Assembly (NCBI RefSeq): GCF_005144585.1
Contig: NZ_SSMQ01000022.1
Span: 62,001-126,000 of the forward strand
Length of the DNA: 64,000 nucleotides
Direction of reading: 5' to 3'
Origin: Polyangium fumosum
GTDB taxonomy: Bacteria > Myxococcota_A > Polyangia > Polyangiales > Polyangiaceae
The notes under the pieces were generated by a model. The model saw only the letters and a program-made list of their open reading frames with translations. It searched no databases and had not been told where the DNA came from. This document shows positions 10,854 through 48,643 of this stretch, in pieces (position 1 is the first letter of the stretch; the number at the start of each line of letters is the position of its first letter). The translations under genes were made by a program, and so were the position numbers.

Positions 10854-11956
10854 TTCAAGGCCTTGTCGAGGACATCCGCGTTCTTCAGGAAGAGCTTCTC
10901 GTACGTCTCGGCGCCGGCGCTGCCGCCGATCGGATCGAGCTCGAAGAGCGGAAGCTTCCCCTGATCGGCGATCACCTGCGCGGGCCTGCGATCGAGCTGC
11001 GGCTCGGAGAAGAGCGCCGCGGGCTTCGTCTTCTCGACCGCGGCGAGCACGTCCTTCACGTATCGCGCCGTCGGCTCCTTGCCGGGGAACGGCTCGATCA
11101 CGGCCGCGATCGAGAGGCCGTAGCGCTCGGCGAAATAGCCCATCGAGCCGTGGAACGTGACGATCGTCTTTTTCGTCCAGCCCTTCGCGCGCGCTTCGAG
11201 GTCCGCGTGCAGCTTGTCGAGCTCCGCCTCCACGGCCTTGCCGCGCGCCCGGTAGCCCTCGGCGCCCTTCGGATCGAGCTTCGCGAAGGCCTCGACGAGC
11301 TCGGGCACGACCGACTTCATGCGCACCGGATCCAGCCAGAAATGCGGGTCCTCGGCGCCGTGCGCGTGGTGATGGCCGTGGTGGTCGTGCTCGCCCTTCG
11401 CCGCGCCTTTGGGCTCGGGCTTCGGCGCGTGGTCGCCGTCGTCGTGCTCGCGGCCGTCTTCGTGTTTCTCGTGCTCGTGCTCGTGCTTCGCCTTGTCGTC
11501 GTGATGATCGTCGTGGCCCTTCGCGTGGTCCTCGCCCTCCTCGGCGGCGTCGGCGCCGACCTCCTCGGCCGTCATGCGCCGCGGGTTCGCCTTGGGGCCG
11601 AGCTGCACGATCGGCACGTCCGTGCCCGCGGCGCCCCGCACGATCTTCTCCAGCCAGCCATCCATGCCGAGGCCGACCGAGATGCCGAGCTTGCTCTTCG
11701 CGACCTGCGCCATCTCCTTCGGCGTCGGGTCGTAGCTGTGCTCGGAGCGGCCCGGCGGAAGCACGAGCACGACGTCGAGGCCGTCGCCCGCGACGCGTCG
11801 CGCGATGTCCCATAACGGGAAGATCGAGACCGCGACGCGGGGTTTGTCCGAGGAGGTAGCGGGCCCGTCCTTGCTGCGGCTACTGCAAGCCGCGGCGACG
11901 AGCACGACGAGGACGAGGACGATGGAACGCAGAACCGTGGCGAGTCTCGACGACAT
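10850..11956 (-). CDS. znuA: Zinc ABC transporter, substrate-binding lipoprotein ZnuA
   Basis: Periplasmic metal-binding component, cluster 9 (A-1) family, 368 residues from the ATG at 11956. The signal peptide ends in a lipobox AAAC (Cys24), so it is membrane-anchored. Features: VSIFPLWDIARRVAG, the first His ligand in SEHSYDPTPK (H73), a long acidic His-rich loop (about residues 143-200) and the second half starting DPHFWLDP with FHGSMGYFAERYGL. The His-rich loop is the usual mark of zinc-specific binding proteins and may act as a metal trap. Regulation by a Zur-type repressor would be expected, but I see no AT-rich Zur palindrome upstream (11957-12082). Confidence 0.94.
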   Translation of the reverse strand: MSSRLATVLRSIVLVLVVLVAAACSSRSKDGPATSSDKPRVAVSIFPLWDIARRVAGDGLDVVLVLPPGRSEHSYDPTPKEMAQVAKSKLGISVGLGMDGWLEKIVRGAAGTDVPIVQLGPKANPRRMTAEEVGADAAEEGEDHAKGHDDHHDDKAKHEHEHEKHEDGREHDDGDHAPKPEPKGAAKGEHDHHGHHHAHGAEDPHFWLDPVRMKSVVPELVEAFAKLDPKGAEGYRARGKAVEAELDKLHADLEARAKGWTKKTIVTFHGSMGYFAERYGLSIAAVIEPFPGKEPTARYVKDVLAAVEKTKPAALFSEPQLDRRPAQVIADQGKLPLFELDPIGGSAGAETYEKLFLKNADVLDKALK

Positions 11957-12082
11957 GAACAAGGCTTCCCCCCGGGCGAGGACCGGGGCGGCAGGATCGA
12001 AGCGAGGGGGGATGCGTGTCAAGCAAGCTCGGATGCGACTCGGGCGATGCCACGACGTAACGCCGTAGTACGATGCGCCGCG
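11957..12082. promoter_or_regulatory. Divergent promoter region upstream of znuA
   Basis: A 126-base gap between divergent starts of znuA (-) and the membrane protein gene (+). It must hold the znu operon promoter. A Zur operator was looked for by eye and not recognised. Confidence 0.4.
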
Positions 12083-13054
12083 ATGTCGTCCACGTCCCTC
12101 ACGGCGCCCAAGGGCAGCCCATCGACGGCGCTCGCCCCGCGCGCCGCCTTTCCTCGCGTCCGCGTTTGCATCGACTGCCGCACGCTCCTCGGCCCGAAAG
12201 AGGCGTGTGACGGCGGCCCCAAGCACCGCGTGACCTCGATCGAGACCCCCACCGGGCGCAACGTGCTGCGCACCGAGGTGTGGGGCCCGCCGTCCGTGCG
12301 AAGGCGCGCCAAACAGCTCGCGAAGGCCGGCGGCACCTCGCTCGGCGCAGGCACGATCTTCGAGGGGTGCAGCGGCTGCGGCGACTGCGGCGGCGTCGCG
12401 CTCGAGGGCGAATTCATCGTTGTCGTCGCCGTGATCGCGCTCATCGCGGCGGCCGGCGCCTTGCTCTACTGGATCATCGCCAAGATCGTCGAGGCCATCC
12501 GCGCCTACCAGAACCGGCCTCGGCCGAACGGCGGGCTCACGAAGCCTCCCTCGCTCGGGCGCAGGGCCGGGCCGAGCGGCGTCGTGCTCGGACAAACCAA
12601 CATGCTCGCGCCCGCGACGGGCAAGGAGTGCGTCGCCTGGGCCCTCGATCTCCGCAACGAGCGTTTCCTCGGCACCGACCTCATGCTGCACGACGCCGAG
12701 ACCTCGGGCTTCGAGGTGAAGCTCGACGACGGCACCCTCCTGCGCGTGCCCGGGGGCCGCATCCGCCTCGAAGGCCCGAAGAAGCGGGTCGATCGCTCGG
12801 ACGCGCGGCCCCTCGAAGAGTTCGTCCAGACGATCTCGCCCGAGGACGACCCCGAGGACGAGGGCCTCGATGCATTCCCGTACGACACGGTGGACGAGGT
12901 CGTGGTTCGTCCGGGCGATCGGGTGCGTGTCTTCGGCGCGCTCGAACGCGAGGTGGATCCGGATGCGCCCGGCGGGTATCGCGCGTCGAACGCGATCCTC
13001 GTGCCGAAGGGCGTGCCTGCCTTCCGCGTGGAGCGCGACAAGGGGCCTTCGTGA
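12083..13054 (+). CDS. Membrane protein with N-terminal Cys motifs and GIDE-like C-terminal domain
   Basis: A 323-residue protein. The N-terminal part has a possible metal site (CIDCRTLLGPKEACDGG) and a second Cys cluster CSGCGDCGG just before a single hydrophobic helix (VVVAVIALIAAAGALLYWII). The C-terminal part, ending VVVRPGDRVRVFGALEREVDPD, resembles the GIDE-type domain found in bacterial relatives of MULAN/GIDE membrane ligases. That match is from memory of the pattern and tentative. The start is the ATG at 12083 after a weak ribosome-binding site; an upstream in-frame codon at 12047 is less likely. It overlaps the next gene by four bases (GTGA), so translation is coupled. First gene of a five-gene plus-strand run. 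Confidence 0.6.
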   Translation: MSSTSLTAPKGSPSTALAPRAAFPRVRVCIDCRTLLGPKEACDGGPKHRVTSIETPTGRNVLRTEVWGPPSVRRRAKQLAKAGGTSLGAGTIFEGCSGCGDCGGVALEGEFIVVVAVIALIAAAGALLYWIIAKIVEAIRAYQNRPRPNGGLTKPPSLGRRAGPSGVVLGQTNMLAPATGKECVAWALDLRNERFLGTDLMLHDAETSGFEVKLDDGTLLRVPGGRIRLEGPKKRVDRSDARPLEEFVQTISPEDDPEDEGLDAFPYDTVDEVVVRPGDRVRVFGALEREVDPDAPGGYRASNAILVPKGVPAFRVERDKGPS

Positions 13055-14097
13055 AGGCCGAGCTCGCGGCTTGCCAGGTCCACGTCACGCCCGAGGAATA
13101 CGCGTCCGCCGAGGCCTTCGACGCGATGCTGGATCGCATCGGCGAAAAACTCGCGAACGCGCGGGCGCGACGCGCGAACGGCGCTTACGAGCACCCTTGC
13201 CTCGCCGTCTTCCCCGAAATGATCGGCGCCTTCTTGCCGCTCGCCGGCCGGCTCGACACCGTCCGCGACGCGCGCACCGTCGACGAGGCGCTCACGAAGG
13301 TCGCGATCCGCTCGCCCTTTCGCATGGCGTCCGCGATGCTCCGCGGCAAGACGGCCCGCACGAGTATCGGCTTTCTCCTCGCGGTCGCCCCCGACGTGCA
13401 GCGCCTCTATCGCGAGGCTTTCGCGCGATTCGCGCGGCGCTACGAGGCGTGGACCGTGGCCGGCAGCGCGCTCTTGCCTCGCAATGCGCACGGCGACCTC
13501 GCCGATTCGTTTTCGCCCGCAGGCGGGCGTGTCTACAACACCTCGTACACCTTCAATCCCGCAGGCCGGCACGTCTCCGTCGCCCGCAAGGTGAACCTCG
13601 TCCCCACGGTCGAGGACACGCTCGGCCTCTCGCCGGGCCGGCGCGGCGAGCTCATGCCGTTCTCCACGCCGTTCGGCCAGGTCGGCACGCTCATCTGTTA
13701 CGACGGATTCGCCGTCCCGCACACGGCCCGCGAGCCCGACTTCTGCCCCCTGCTCCCCCATTACGATGCACACGGATGCAGCGTGATCGCCCACCCCGCC
13801 GCGAATTTCTGGCCGTGGGAGACGCCGTGGACCTTCGGCGGGATGGACGGACATTTGATCCGCAAACAGCAATGGCTCGACGAGGGCCTCTTCGCGCAGA
13901 TGGAAAGCGCCCCGCTCCGTGCCGTCCGCTACGGCGTGACCGCGCAGCTCCTCGGCCGGGTCTTCGACAGCCACTTCGACGGACGCTCGCACATCCTCGC
14001 GCACGACGGCTCCTCCGTGCGCATCCTCGCCGAGGCGGCGCGCGGCGAAACGTCGCCCGACGCCGAAGAGGTGCTCCTCTGCGTGGTCGAGGTGTAG
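13051..14097 (+). CDS. Carbon-nitrogen hydrolase (nitrilase superfamily)
   Basis: Cytoplasmic hydrolase of about 348 residues with the superfamily Glu-Lys-Cys triad visible: E56 in CLAVFPEM, K180 in VARKVNLVP and C216 in GTLICYDGF. The spacing is a little longer than in compact nitrilases because of an inserted helical segment after the Glu. It would cleave a C-N bond (amide or nitrile); the substrate is unknown. The GTG start at 13051 overlaps the TGA of the preceding membrane protein. The pairing with a GIDE-like membrane protein and downstream methyltransferase is the only context clue. Confidence 0.85.
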   Translation: MKAELAACQVHVTPEEYASAEAFDAMLDRIGEKLANARARRANGAYEHPCLAVFPEMIGAFLPLAGRLDTVRDARTVDEALTKVAIRSPFRMASAMLRGKTARTSIGFLLAVAPDVQRLYREAFARFARRYEAWTVAGSALLPRNAHGDLADSFSPAGGRVYNTSYTFNPAGRHVSVARKVNLVPTVEDTLGLSPGRRGELMPFSTPFGQVGTLICYDGFAVPHTAREPDFCPLLPHYDAHGCSVIAHPAANFWPWETPWTFGGMDGHLIRKQQWLDEGLFAQMESAPLRAVRYGVTAQLLGRVFDSHFDGRSHILAHDGSSVRILAEAARGETSPDAEEVLLCVVEV

Positions 14098-14162
14098 ACA
14101 ACCCCGCGCCGTGGTCTTACCTTCGGGCGCCGGCGACGAGCCACCGAGGAAGCACCACGATC

Positions 14163-14438
14163 ATGAATCAACCGAACCCGTGGATCCTGCTCATGGGAGG
14201 CTTCGCGCTCTTCAACGTCGCCGGCATGGCGTACGGGATCAAAGCGCCGGAGTGGGCGAAGATCGCGGCCGCGCTCGCCTGCGGGCTGCTCGGCGTCGTC
14301 TGCATCGTCCTCGCGTTCCAGCGTCAGTTCGGCAAGAAACCGGTCCCGCCGCCGAAGGTCGAAAAACGCGCGACGCGCGCGGCACGGGCTTCGTCTCCGC
14401 GCCCCACGCAGGCAGGCGACGCGGGCGACGTCTCGTAG
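14163..14438 (+). CDS. Small two-helix membrane protein
   Basis: Encodes 91 residues: two hydrophobic helices (about 6-24 and 33-52), then a basic, Pro/Arg-rich cytoplasmic tail (KKPVPPPKVEKRATRAARAS). No family recognised. GAGGAAGCACC upstream of the ATG at 14163 provides a ribosome-binding site. It sits 65 bases after the hydrolase and 13 bases before the methyltransferase, consistent with membership of the same transcription unit. Confidence 0.7.
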   Translation: MNQPNPWILLMGGFALFNVAGMAYGIKAPEWAKIAAALACGLLGVVCIVLAFQRQFGKKPVPPPKVEKRATRAARASSPRPTQAGDAGDVS

Positions 14439-14451
14439 AAAGGGCGCTCGG

Positions 14452-15102
14452 GTGACGTCGCGCGCGTCCGGCTCGACCTCCCGCGACGAAGCGCGCAGGG
14501 CCTTGCTCGCGGATCTCTCCGCGGGCCGCATCGTCTCCGACCTCGCCTTCGACCGCCTCTACCCCGAGCGCATCCGCAAACTCTCGAATCGATACTGGAC
14601 GCCGGTCCACGTGGCCCGCCACGCCGCGGCCCTGTTCGCGAAGCACGGCGCGCGCCGCGTGCTCGACATCGGCGCCGGCATGGGTAAATTCTGCGTCGTC
14701 GCGGCGATCACGACGAACCTCGAGCTTTCGGGCATCGAGCAGCGCGAGGGCCTCGTCACGGCCGGCCGGGAGATCCTCGCGACGTATTCCATTCCGCGCG
14801 TCACCTTGATCCACGGCACGCTCGACGATGTCGATTTCGACGCGTACGACGGGTTTTACCTGTTCAACCCCTTCGAGGAGGGCACCTTCGCGCCCTCGCA
14901 ATGGGTCGACCGAACGATCCCGCTCTCCGAGCAGCGCGCCTCCGAGGACGCTGTCCGGGTCGAGGCCGCGCTCGCGCGGGTCCGGCGCGGCACGTGTGTC
15001 GTGACGTTCCATGGATTCGGCGGCGCGATCCCCCCGGGATTCGTGTACCTGCCGGAGGAGACGCGCGCCATTCCGTTCCTGCGGCTGTGGGTGAAGGGTT
15101 GA
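14452..15102 (+). CDS. Class I SAM-dependent methyltransferase
   Basis: A 216-residue protein with the SAM-binding motif VLDIGAGMGKF (about residues 70-80). It is followed by an acidic ribose-binding position in LSGIEQREGLV and a post-strand-4 YDGFYLFNPFEEG. The N-terminal region LAFDRLYPERIRKLSNRYWTPVHVARHAA is a family-specific cap. The start is a GTG at 14452. The substrate is unknown; it is a general Rossmann methyltransferase without motifs that point to RNA, protein or small-molecule targets. Confidence 0.8.
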   Translation: MTSRASGSTSRDEARRALLADLSAGRIVSDLAFDRLYPERIRKLSNRYWTPVHVARHAAALFAKHGARRVLDIGAGMGKFCVVAAITTNLELSGIEQREGLVTAGREILATYSIPRVTLIHGTLDDVDFDAYDGFYLFNPFEEGTFAPSQWVDRTIPLSEQRASEDAVRVEAALARVRRGTCVVTFHGFGGAIPPGFVYLPEETRAIPFLRLWVKG

Positions 15103-28482: not shown

Positions 28483-28974
28483 ATGTTGCGAAAATTGGAG
28501 CCGGAAGAGATCGCCTTTATCGAGCGAATCAACGCGGTCTTTTTGTCCGAAGAGCTGGACTTCGAGGAAGCGGTCCGCGAATATCGCCGAATCGAAGAGG
28601 AGTTCGTCGAGCGGGCAGGCGACAACGAGCACCATGTCGTGGAGACCAGGCGGCGCATCACGGAGTGGCTCCTGAGTGAGGCGCTCAGAGACGAGCAACC
28701 CCACGAGGTTTGCCGGGAGATCTGGCACGAGCTTTTGGAGCGTGGGTTCTCCGGCATCGAGAACCGCCACTGGATGAGCGGCATCTATGCACGGTGCTGC
28801 CAGATGAATGGCGAGTTCGAAGCCGGCCTTGCGGTGATCGAGCCGCTCATCGCCGAGGCCGAGCAGGGGCTCGCGGATCCGACGCTTCCACCGAACCCAC
28901 GTGCCTTTTACGAACAAGAACTCACGAGGGACTGCAAGATACGAGACGAGCTCAAAGCCGGCATCCGAGGGTGA
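28483..28974 (+). CDS. Module partner A1: helical protein, single domain (possible immunity protein)
   Basis: A 163-residue cytoplasmic protein with no signal, entirely helical. The conserved core runs FEEAVREYRRIEEEFVERAG, VVETRRRITEWLLSEAL, PHEVCREIWHELLERGFS, MSGIYARCCQMNGEFEAGLA. The last part looks TPR-like. AGGACAG precedes the ATG at 28483. The same domain appears twice more in the next gene and twice in the protein at 46450-47574. Immediately downstream of the module lipoprotein, which is the position of an immunity gene in toxin/immunity pairs; no direct evidence of binding. Confidence 0.75.
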   Translation: MLRKLEPEEIAFIERINAVFLSEELDFEEAVREYRRIEEEFVERAGDNEHHVVETRRRITEWLLSEALRDEQPHEVCREIWHELLERGFSGIENRHWMSGIYARCCQMNGEFEAGLAVIEPLIAEAEQGLADPTLPPNPRAFYEQELTRDCKIRDELKAGIRG

Positions 28975-29045
28975 GCGAGGCACGTGGGTGGTCTCGACGG
29001 AGGACGAACGCGCCCTGCGGCCCACCTGGCGAAAGTAGGACAGAT

Positions 29046-29990
29046 ATGTTGCGAAAACTAGAGCCGGAAGAGATCGCCTTCATCGAGCGAGTCAACGCGG
29101 TCTACTTGTCCGACGAGCTGGACTTCGAGGAAGCGGTCCGCGAATATCGCCGAATCGAAGAGGAGTTCGTCGAGCGGGCAGGCGACAACGAGTACCATGT
29201 CGTGGAGACCAGGCGGCGCATCACGGAGTGGATCCTGAGCGAGGCGGTCAGAGACGTGCAGCCCCACGAGGTGTGCCGGGAGATCTGGCACGAGCTTTTG
29301 CAGCGCGGATTCTCCGACGTCCAGAAGCGCTACAACATGAGCGGCATCTATGCGCGGTGCTGCCAACTGAATGGTGAGTTCGACGCTGGCCTCGCGGTGA
29401 TCGAACCGCTCATCGCCGAGGCCGAGCAGGCGCTCGCGGATCCGGCGCTCCCGCCGAACCCGCGTATTTTTTACGAATACGCGCTCCCGATCGACCGCAA
29501 GATACGAGACGAGCTCAAAGCCGGCATCCGATCGCTCATGCAACGAATCGAAGCGGTCTACTTCTCCGACGAGATGAGCTTCGAGGAAGCGGTTCGCGAA
29601 TATCGCCGAATCGAAGAGGAATTTGTCGAGCGGGCAGGCGACAACGAAGCCGATGTCGTGGAAACCAGGCGGAGCATCACCGAGTGGCTCCTGCGCCATG
29701 CGCTCGAAAAAGAGCAACCCCACGAGGTTTGCCGGGAGATCTGGCACGAGCTTTTGCAGCGGGGGTTCTCCCGCATCGAGGAACGACACAGGTCAAGCCG
29801 CATCTATGCGCGGTGCTGCCAAATGAATGGTGAGTTCGACGCCGGCCTCGCGGTGATCGAACCGCTCATCGCCGAGTCCGAGCAGGAGCCCGAGGATGCG
29901 GCGCTCCCGGACCCGCATGCATTTTATGAACACGCGCTTGAGAAGCACCGCGAGATACGAGACGAACTCAAAGCCGGTATCCGACGGTGA
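29046..29990 (+). CDS. Module partner A2-A3: two fused copies of the helical partner domain
   Basis: A 314-residue protein with domain A2 (about 1-158) nearly identical to the protein encoded at 28483-28974, and domain A3 (about 159-314) a further, more diverged copy joined in frame at GIRSLMQRIEAVYFSDEM. Both keep EAVREYRRIEEEFVERAG and PHEVCREIWHELLQRGFS; A3 lost the Met-Ser-Gly of the YARCC motif (RSSRIYARCC). The ATG at 29046 and its upstream region are a copy of the first gene's leader. No signal peptide. Arose by tandem duplication; the differences concentrate outside the core, as expected if specificity is diversifying. Confidence 0.75.
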   Translation: MLRKLEPEEIAFIERVNAVYLSDELDFEEAVREYRRIEEEFVERAGDNEYHVVETRRRITEWILSEAVRDVQPHEVCREIWHELLQRGFSDVQKRYNMSGIYARCCQLNGEFDAGLAVIEPLIAEAEQALADPALPPNPRIFYEYALPIDRKIRDELKAGIRSLMQRIEAVYFSDEMSFEEAVREYRRIEEEFVERAGDNEADVVETRRSITEWLLRHALEKEQPHEVCREIWHELLQRGFSRIEERHRSSRIYARCCQMNGEFDAGLAVIEPLIAESEQEPEDAALPDPHAFYEHALEKHREIRDELKAGIRR

Positions 29991-30004
29991 GCGGCGCACG
30001 TGGG

Positions 30005-30374
30005 GAAGGTCGCTCCACCTCCGCCCGGAGGTCGCTCCACCTCCGAACGGAGGTCGCTCCACCTCCTCCAAGAGGTCACCCCCCTCCACTCGGCGGCCGG
30101 CCTGGCTCCCCGAGGAGGTCCACCTCCTCCGCCTCGAAGTCGGCTGACTCCGCCCGGAAATCAGCTTCCCCCCCCAGGAAACCGTCCACCTCCGCCAGGA
30201 GATGCAGCACCTCCGATGTGCGGTTGTTCACCTCCGGGAGAAGCCCCCGCATCCCCTTCCGGACGTCCGGAGCCTCCGGGAAGAGGTCGTCGAACGCCAA
30301 GGAGGGGTCCTCCACCGCCGAGGAGACATCCTCGATCTCCGGAAAGAGGTTGTCTACCTCCGCTGGGGAGAGCC
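30005..30374. repeat. Degenerate 21/22-bp minisatellite array, about 17 units
   Basis: This otherwise gene-free stretch (29991-30374) is filled by a repeat anchored on CTCCG-like pentamers. These lie at 30019, 30041, 30063, 30085 (22-base steps) and then every 21 bases through 30106, 30127, 30148, 30190, 30211, 30232, 30274, 30337 and 30358, with degenerate matches at the intervening positions. The first units are nearly identical (GGAGGTCGCTCCACCTCC) and each can fold as GGAGGT/ACCTCC. On the minus strand the 21-base units read as a heptad (x-E-V-x-x-L-x) without a stop to 30076, but no start signal supports a gene. It also lies between convergent genes and may end transcription. Confidence 0.8.
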
Positions 30375-31415
30375 CTACGGCGTCGTCGCGGTGAACTGCA
30401 CGCCGCCGCCATCCTTGGCGATCTGTGGCGTGATGATGACGTTGGGGGGAGGCTCCGGGGGACGGCTCGCAATCCCGATGATCAGGCCCGTCAGGGAGAG
30501 CCCTCCCACGATGCCGCCCACCGTGGCAACCCCTGTCCACGTGGCAGCAGCCGATTTCGATTCCGCATTGTTCACCTGGACAAGGCCAACCGCCAGGGCC
30601 CCCAATCCGAGCCCCATTCCGACGCCGCTGGCAATCATGAGGCTCTGAGGCCACGTGGATTGATCCGCCTTCGCTCCATTCGACAAGTTCGCATTGATAT
30701 TAAAATGAATCGGCGGGGTGGGAAACTGGACATATTGCGCATGGATGCGCTGCTGCATCGCGATCCGTAGCTCCTTTCGTTCCCCGGCTTTGATGTCCAC
30801 GTGCGTCTCGTTCATCCAGTACCCGGAAGCGTTCGCTTTGATCTCGTGGCTCCCGGGCTCGACATAGATCTCGTCGTGGTAGGGCCAGTCCATCACGAGT
30901 TCCCCGTCCACCGTGATGCGCACGCCGGCGATGTTGATCCGGAGCGCGATCGTCCCGAGGCGCTTCGCGCAGTAGGCCAATACCGTCCGGACCTCCGTGA
31001 CCGGGTGCAACTTGTAGTCGCGCAGGGCCCAGAACGCGATGACGTCCTGGATGTTGCGTGCGCAAGGGAGGAACAAACCTGCACGCGCCTGGGCCAAACC
31101 AAGCTCCAATTGTGTATCCGGCAGGCTGTTGTGCGCGTAGGCATCCTGGTACTTTTCGAGCGCCGCCGCGACCTTGCCTGCTTTCTCCAACGCCTGCGCC
31201 TCCAGGAGGAGCTTCCTCGTCGATTCGTGGAAGGTCGTCATGAGGGCGCGATCGGTCGTGTACACGGTGTACGGGATCTCCAATTTCTCGGGCACCTGGA
31301 TAGGTTCCGTGGGGGCCGGAGCGCCGGCCCCTTCCTCGGCCAGCGACACCGACGAGGAGACCGAGACCGCGAGGAGGAGCGTGCTTGCGAGGAGAAGGTG
31401 CTTCATGAGAGGCAC
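30375..31415 (-). CDS. Exported PEGA-domain protein with TPR-like region
   Basis: A 346-residue periplasmic protein. Signal peptide (cleavage near SLA-EEG). A helical segment with TPR character (LEAQALEKAGKVAAALEKYQDAYAHNSLPDTQLELGLA) covers about residues 70-115. It is followed by a PEGA domain (GVRITVDGELVMDWPYHDEIYVEPGSHEIKANASGY) near 165-200 and a C-terminal hydrophobic hairpin (about 258-318). GGAGGG is well spaced for the GTG at 31415; an ATG nine bases further in is the alternative. PEGA proteins of this layout are abundant in myxobacterial cell envelopes. A long inverted repeat lies just upstream. Confidence 0.8.
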   Translation of the reverse strand: MPLMKHLLLASTLLLAVSVSSSVSLAEEGAGAPAPTEPIQVPEKLEIPYTVYTTDRALMTTFHESTRKLLLEAQALEKAGKVAAALEKYQDAYAHNSLPDTQLELGLAQARAGLFLPCARNIQDVIAFWALRDYKLHPVTEVRTVLAYCAKRLGTIALRINIAGVRITVDGELVMDWPYHDEIYVEPGSHEIKANASGYWMNETHVDIKAGERKELRIAMQQRIHAQYVQFPTPPIHFNINANLSNGAKADQSTWPQSLMIASGVGMGLGLGALAVGLVQVNNAESKSAAATWTGVATVGGIVGGLSLTGLIIGIASRPPEPPPNVIITPQIAKDGGGVQFTATTP

Positions 31416-48331: not shown

Positions 48332-48428
48332 GACCGAGATGCGACCAGAGTTCTCGAGTTCCGTCAATTCGGCACGTAAGCGCCGTCACCATGCACCACG
48401 TGGTCGACGCTCGAACCCCTCGCCATCG

Positions 48429-48643
48429 TCCTCGCCCATGACCCCAAGGCCCCCCAAACCCCCCGTACGTCTCCTCCCCGATGACCCGCATGCCCCCCAA
48501 ACCCCTCGCGCCCCTCATGCCGGAGGACCCGCGTGGCCCCTTCACCTGCCGTTGCCCTCCTCTCCGATGACCCCCACGCGGTCCCAATCCCCCGAGCGCG
48601 TCCTCGCCTTCGAACCTCGTCCCCCCTCCCGATGTCGTCTCAC
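48429..48643. repeat. 43-bp degenerate tandem repeat with G-quadruplex potential
   Basis: The 300-base gap 48332-48631 is mostly a tandem repeat. The box TCCTCnCCnATGACCC starts at 48429, 48472 and 48558, a weaker copy at 48515 (12 of 16 bases match) and a decayed one at 48601, all in steps of 43 bases. A period not divisible by three argues against coding. Units 1 and 2 hold C-runs at 48435-48464 and 48476-48505 with 3-5-base spacers, so the minus strand can form canonical G-quadruplexes. These would sit about 105-175 bases upstream of the module lipoprotein B start. Confidence 0.7.

Follow-up and report, generated by a model that had tools for sequence, protein, structure and literature searches.

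Between the called ends of two convergent genes in Polyangium fumosum lies a worn tandem repeat which can be read as protein-coding, as an RNA element, or as neither, and the question that it raises is what kind of DNA it is and what sets the length of its units. Here the term ‘window’ describes the whole stretch of DNA analysed, 64,000 nucleotides in length, from a genome designated G000 (12.98 Mb, 201 contigs). Genomes G001 to G005 are of the same genus, with G004 the sister genome (main contig, 13.24 Mb). Genes were called with a home-made program that uses the GC content at each codon position, the output of which was inspected on 20 kb of the window. The array and its immediate neighbours are listed below, where the strand given for array features is that of the unit GGAGGT-N5/6-ACCTCC-TGGC:

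28483–29990, plus strand: tandem copies of a small gene, family unassigned (gene call; without Pfam match above cut-off)
30005–30374, minus strand: entire non-coding array of 17 units, each of 21 or 22 bp (autocorrelation and unit chain)
30005–30092, minus strand: the more regular, palindromic 22-bp units (lag-22 match of 0.74; the end with an extra unit in G004)
30093–30374, minus strand: worn 21-bp units (lag-21 match of 0.52)
30375–31406, minus strand: PEGA-like gene, the stop of which adjoins the array (gene call; Pfam PEGA at 16.6 bits, below the cut-off of 20.8)

A preliminary description of this DNA had proposed about 17 degenerate units that keep a 21-base phase along with four 22-base units, and this stands. 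That is, the lag-21 self-match over 30005–30374 is 0.467 versus 0.288 in shuffled sequence (z 7.7), with further signals at lag 42 (z 8.1), lag 63 (z 6.0), and lag 22 (z 5.0), and of all 370-bp windows in the 64 kb, the 12 that score best at lag 21/22 start within 29991–30101. A chain in which only units of 21 or 22 bp are allowed runs from 30001 to 30361 and consists of 17 units, i.e., thirteen of 21 bp and four of 22 bp, its ends lying 10 and 13 bp from the called ends of the flanking genes. Because the units are worn, Tandem Repeats Finder (TRF) by itself picks up the array only in part, at 30007–30077 and 30285–30325. With its 17 units the array falls within the definition of a satellite used in PMC6749651, i.e., at least four repeats of 10–200 nt with internal regularity. 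The consensus unit reads GGAGGT-N5/6-ACCTCC, an inverted repeat. This palindrome is near perfect in the 22-bp units and is gone from many of the 21-bp units.

The array is not alone in its genome. Searching G000 with the window sequence, as had been suggested at the outset, yields further arrays, including those designated C141 and C138, which are 78% alike over ~395 bp, with flanks that are unlike in the pieces compared. In total, 40 loci were gathered by one-array searches and a unit model, and thus were picked by likeness, orthologues included. The chain model finds arrays at 39 of these, i.e., at all except L123. Essentially intergenic locations (overlaps of no more than 17 bp with called genes) are seen with 36 of the 39, and L121, L125, and L136 lie largely inside a called open reading frame. 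If copies may take any length and as much as 60 bp of flank is added, then 703 of the 783 copies measure 21 or 22 bp. Array size is narrow as well, with 15–19 units found in 31 of the 39 by the chain model. As a side observation, the 22-bp units gather at one and the same end, as judged by the direction of the unit, in the window array, in C141, and in two C138 arrays, a clustering which not all of the other arrays follow.

Across the order, the unit model at an E of 1e-7 matches 7 of 183 genomes, namely six Polyangium genomes and G043, a genome of another genus. At an E of 1e-3 it matches 89 of 108 genomes of the family, Polyangium included, the matches in other genera being weak: among 13 other-genus loci (L106–L118), a unit chain is found in six, of only 2–6 units, and three of the six are in called genes. 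A phage or plasmid origin was considered as well and set aside, the window array having no match in either collection at an E of 1e-3.

Might the array instead be the remains of a coiled-coil coding array? The preliminary description had noted a heptad reading on the minus strand. That frame (EVDNLFPEIEDV...) is indeed open across most of the 21-bp part, for more than 80 codons, and belongs to the following open reading frame:

30076–30654, minus strand: open reading frame with the heptad reading, 192 codons, which starts within the PEGA-like gene and is judged not to be a gene

Also in keeping with coding are the three of 39 arrays just mentioned as lying largely within a called open reading frame, along with true heptad-coding stretches of related genomes, which match the unit model weakly. 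What a coiled-coil coding array should display, however, i.e., a frame that is kept, a start of its own, and changes at third positions, is not what is seen in the window. The open reading frame begins inside the PEGA-like gene, in a different frame and without its own start, and no conserved homolog emerges from Pfam, which gives no match. Of the 91 sites at each codon position of the heptad frame, 6 first, 13 second, and 8 third positions differ from G004, whereas in five nearby genes it is the third positions which change most. G004 furthermore possesses an extra 22-bp unit, which would shift any reading frame, just as frame is broken by 22-bp units generally and by the 43- and 64-bp periods described below. 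Coding origin thus has very little indeed to recommend it. A seeming codon signal does appear in pooled array pairs, in which unit positions 3, 6, 9, and so on change most (0.175 versus 0.137 and 0.121), and was rejected. These positions are second rather than third in the heptad frame, and on them fall the A and T within GGAGGT, which stand out in so GC-rich a unit.

A second possibility is a structured RNA or a terminator between convergent genes, the latter having been one of the initial suggestions. The array does lie, non-coding, between convergent gene ends, and to this extent that suggestion survives. Its minus-strand folding energy is also below that of shuffled sequences (z of −2.3 and −5.8 for the two strands, −5.8 being the minus strand). 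Over 12 arrays, both strands considered, however, z ranges from +2.2 to −13.3, so strong structure occurs without being common to all. Paired changes in the palindrome arms, as expected of a hairpin RNA, are absent over 352 units from 21 related arrays (z of 0.1–1.7 for six arm pairs, in a test with little power for homogeneous arrays). The stem-loop with T run of an intrinsic terminator likewise is not found: there is no T-tract within the window array, and the one weak terminator site beside it (29985–29973) compares with 0.5 expected by chance. Rfam provides no match to the window array. Gene orientation counts against termination as the role of the wider class introduced below, since class arrays occur between divergent genes as well, with 3 convergent, 3 divergent, and 7 tandem contexts, which is near chance, among 13 arrays from an even sample with genes called on both sides. 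Termination or RNA structure is, consequently, a very improbable explanation. Three related ideas were discarded too. A CRISPR array is ruled out as the units adjoin without spacers. CsrB-like RNAs are of similar length and carry repeated GGA motifs, and GGAGGT and ACCTCC can be read as Shine-Dalgarno and anti-Shine-Dalgarno words, but both of these roles were dropped because several class arrays lack those words.

The locus is a changeable one, and here the expectation of repeat-driven change next to a gene amplification is borne out. The block of small genes has 3 copies in the window, the last two read as one open reading frame of 314 codons, and is ~3.9 kb long in G004 versus 1.6 kb in the window. 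The G004 array at this locus has exactly one more 22-bp unit, seen as a 22-bp alignment gap at the 30005–30092 end, so that copy number differs between these relatives by a whole unit. In sequence, the window array and its G004 counterpart differ at 27 of 273 sites, as compared with 131 of 1047 four-fold sites in five nearby genes. Array drift thus is at about the four-fold-site rate, which implies little constraint on the sequence; divergence is greater in other array pairs than in this one.

In G004 there is also a second copy of the window array at another locus, L079. Plain transposition was considered for this copy and fits less well than does a larger duplication followed by loss, given what adjoins L079, namely an AraC gene-end remnant and a 165-bp sequence that are both found near the window locus of G004 as well. 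That sequence of ~165 bp is dispersed, has no evident reading frame, and occurs, near several arrays, at L155:5225–5391, L079:9811–9973, L086:9783–9953, and L034:14612–14773. Several other things were noted. One is a gene beside arrays that is coiled-coil-like and phasin-like, a name that is a guess as there is no Pfam match, at L086:10403–10921 and L009:4890–5918, with a remnant of its end adjoining the C138 array. Another is at L038:8125–8358 in G001, where a 43-bp array of other sequence starts where a PEGA-like paralogue stops, as the array does in the window; the PEGA-like protein of the window, searched against a named collection, is found at two loci, both of Polyangium sp. 6x1. A third, L079:10542–10639, is a (GCTGCC)n hexamer repeat, which accounts for many of the matches when the query containing it is searched against four Polyangium genomes.

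Dispersal extends beyond the window array. One unit at several unlinked loci with unlike flanks, which is what is meant by a dispersed satellite family, describes both the C141/C138 arrays and the family of L155, a 43-bp array of which whole or partial copies are present in all five of the other Polyangium genomes searched. When 13 array loci of G004 are compared with G000, collinearity to within 100 bp on each side is seen for the window pair alone, some of the partner pieces ending nearby. This is no more than suggestive of a link between arrays and synteny breaks, the count being of array sites alone. At L079/L091 the same outer flanks enclose a GGAGGT-type array in G004, where they are 3.6 kb apart, and a 43-bp array in G000, where they are 0.45 kb apart. 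The array of locus L181 in G004 is interrupted at 11813–14750 by an insertion of 2.94 kb, of which 13 of 15 terminal inverted bases match and which carries an IS1-like transposase (Pfam score barely over the cut-off, NCBIfam below it). The G000 counterpart is one unbroken array.

What, then, do arrays that are not related by sequence have in common with the window array? Here an even sample of the G004 chromosome was used, which avoids choice by likeness: 60 nearly evenly spaced pieces of 20 kb each, or 1.2 Mb. TRF finds 81 clusters in this sample, 54 of which are at least 80% outside of called genes. The count was limited to intergenic periods of 15–180 bp that are not divisible by 3, thereby setting aside coding repeats which had gone uncalled. 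Of 19 such periods, 14 are within 1 bp of a multiple of 21.33 (P of 2e-10, with rows taken as independent, the step having been suggested beforehand by the window array, the ladder first noticed in the very sample later counted, and the value 21.33 fitted there). The ladder values seen are 22, 43, 64, 85, 86, 127, 128, and 170 bp. In 785 kb from other Polyangium loci, with GGAGGT-type arrays removed, 4 of 5 periods fit, i.e., four of 43 bp and one, not fitting, of 109. One of those four is the window's own second array:

48414–48540, no strand assigned: second array of the class, period 43 bp, 2.2 copies (TRF), with divergent genes at 63 and 52 bp

Combined, 18 of 24 periods are on the ladder, where 2.6 would be expected as 12 of the 110 possible values fit (P of 3e-13), and the best quantum is 21.3. 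If L171, L143/L150, and L163/L187 are counted once each then the result is 15 of 21 (P of 1e-10). Two of the ladder rows, 128 and 22, come from adjoining parts of one array at L191. The six off-ladder periods are 40, 41, 55, 58, 79, and 109, with 40, 41, and 58 arising from one complex locus, L169, that also gives 127 and 43. Periods near an odd number of turns (33 and 54) make up four rows, all of them multiples of three. Genic arrays were not used for this count, as a 42-bp period is explicable by two heptads or chance; 11 of 38 are within 1 bp of the ladder, with seven of the 11 being 42 bp. Ladder arrays occur beyond the genus too: 200 kb of G043 contains three that exceed 140 bp, with periods of 21, 22, and 21/64 bp. 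An equal length of G114 contains none, which is a weak negative with 2–3 expected at G004 density.

The most regular arrays display nearly constant copy length, e.g., 7, 8, or 9 copies of exactly 43 bp. Some have nested periods, i.e., 21, 43, 85, and 128 in L221, 21, 43, and 86 in L218, and 21, 64, and 106 in L224, their longer units thus being multiples of a 21/22-bp monomer. Within the 43-bp units of L163, L177, and L170 there is no self-likeness at a lag of 21 or 22. Among the 741 pairs that can be formed from 39 consensus units, some of which probably are coding, four pairs agree at 18–20 of 20 letters and four more at 17 of 20, versus a maximum of 16 of 20 in 400 shuffled pairs. One of the four best pairs is two halves of a single split array. 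The window array is therefore one of a wide class whose members share a period and, for the most part, not a sequence, and the unexpected aspect of this class is its step of ~21.3 bp, which is close to two helical turns.

The explanation that we favour, with somewhat better than even confidence, is that the array is bacterial satellite DNA, belonging to a class that is found in Polyangium chromosomes and for which two-turn DNA geometry would set the step. Slippage or unequal recombination, within as well as between arrays, would result in the gain, loss, and homogenisation of copies, with recombination also keeping units in register. The step would be that of two helical turns of negatively supercoiled DNA, at ~10.65 bp each. 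Either the process which first duplicates a segment might work in two-turn steps, or other spacings might be disfavoured by protein packing. The mean step of ~21.2–21.5 bp would fit two turns of 10.6–10.75 bp, if such is the helical repeat of the host. The neighbours of an array probably do not depend on its being intact.

In eukaryotes, nucleosomes have been credited with setting satellite length. By analogy, unit length in Polyangium might be fixed at two turns, independently of sequence, by a packaging protein or instead by a duplication process which measures out two turns, a proposal that we hold tentatively and consider to be rather doubtful. To our knowledge, there is no packaging protein known for these arrays. 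Counting against the favoured, satellite explanation are the narrow size of the GGAGGT-type arrays, which is not expected of free slippage, and the 6 of 24 periods that are off the ladder. In addition, all of the families may share common descent.

That last is the main rival. One ancient 21/22-bp satellite could have spread and diverged, with in-register recombination preserving its length and no geometric rule being involved. Such descent would account for the dispersal of the families, some of which have units in common, and orthologous arrays may differ in unit sequence between species (L078 versus L121), which homogenisation would give. Most units, however, display no likeness above that of shuffled sequences even as their length is held to within one base, where descent by itself should have produced other lengths as well, and an array of the class is present in another genus (G043). 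We therefore view common descent without a geometric rule as unlikely, if still to be taken seriously.

Protein binding is another means by which two turns could matter. That is, each two-turn unit might bind a dimer, with ~17 sites on one face of the helix giving rise to a nucleoprotein patch, which is quite improbable, and which equally improbably would serve, for example, in nucleoid organisation or in control of neighbouring genes. A step close to two turns, the palindromic consensus of the GGAGGT-type family, the narrow array size, and the occurrence of arrays at orthologous places in sister species all would fit a phased binding array. By contrast, the sequence is not constrained, the palindrome is not maintained by paired changes, many families lack a common site, and one array has been split by an insertion sequence.

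The lengths of bacterial tandem repeats are usually explained in terms of reading frame or local history. A ladder that is shared by unrelated intergenic arrays would point instead to a physical rule for the birth or upkeep of repeats, and arrays found at synteny junctions may bear on how genomes of 10–13 Mb become rearranged. Mycobacterial interspersed repetitive units (MIRUs) are also tandem, intergenic, present at many loci, and variable in copy number. MIRUs, however, are of one related sequence, with units of more than 40 bp, and are not known to show a ladder such as that which in Polyangium spans unrelated sequences.

In Leptospira interrogans, some intergenic satellites form families that occupy several loci and are read as transposed, and coding satellites are reported to come in multiples of three (Subirana and Messeguer 2019, PMC6749651). 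The Polyangium arrays resemble these in being short, intergenic, tandem, and in some cases multi-locus families, and differ in that their frame-free periods fall on a 21.3-bp ladder across unrelated families; the available portions of that paper make no mention of helical turns, myxobacteria, Sorangium, Deltaproteobacteria, or 43 nt. Archaeal Borg elements, too, possess many intergenic repeat arrays, of independent origin and quick evolution, and one 20-nt example includes a 21-nt unit (PMC9879509). Borg repeats, however, are described as perfect and A-rich, whereas those of Polyangium are worn and GC-rich, and no length ladder is mentioned in the Borg passages at hand. Nor is such a ladder described in the available portions of open-licence papers on myxobacterial, helical-length, or higher-order bacterial repeats. 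Eukaryotic satellites also come in nucleosomal unit lengths (PMC8122249). With these, length is kept while sequence is not, higher-order multiples are formed, and homogenisation occurs, though the Polyangium step is ~21.3 bp and its arrays are mostly 0.2–0.5 kb.
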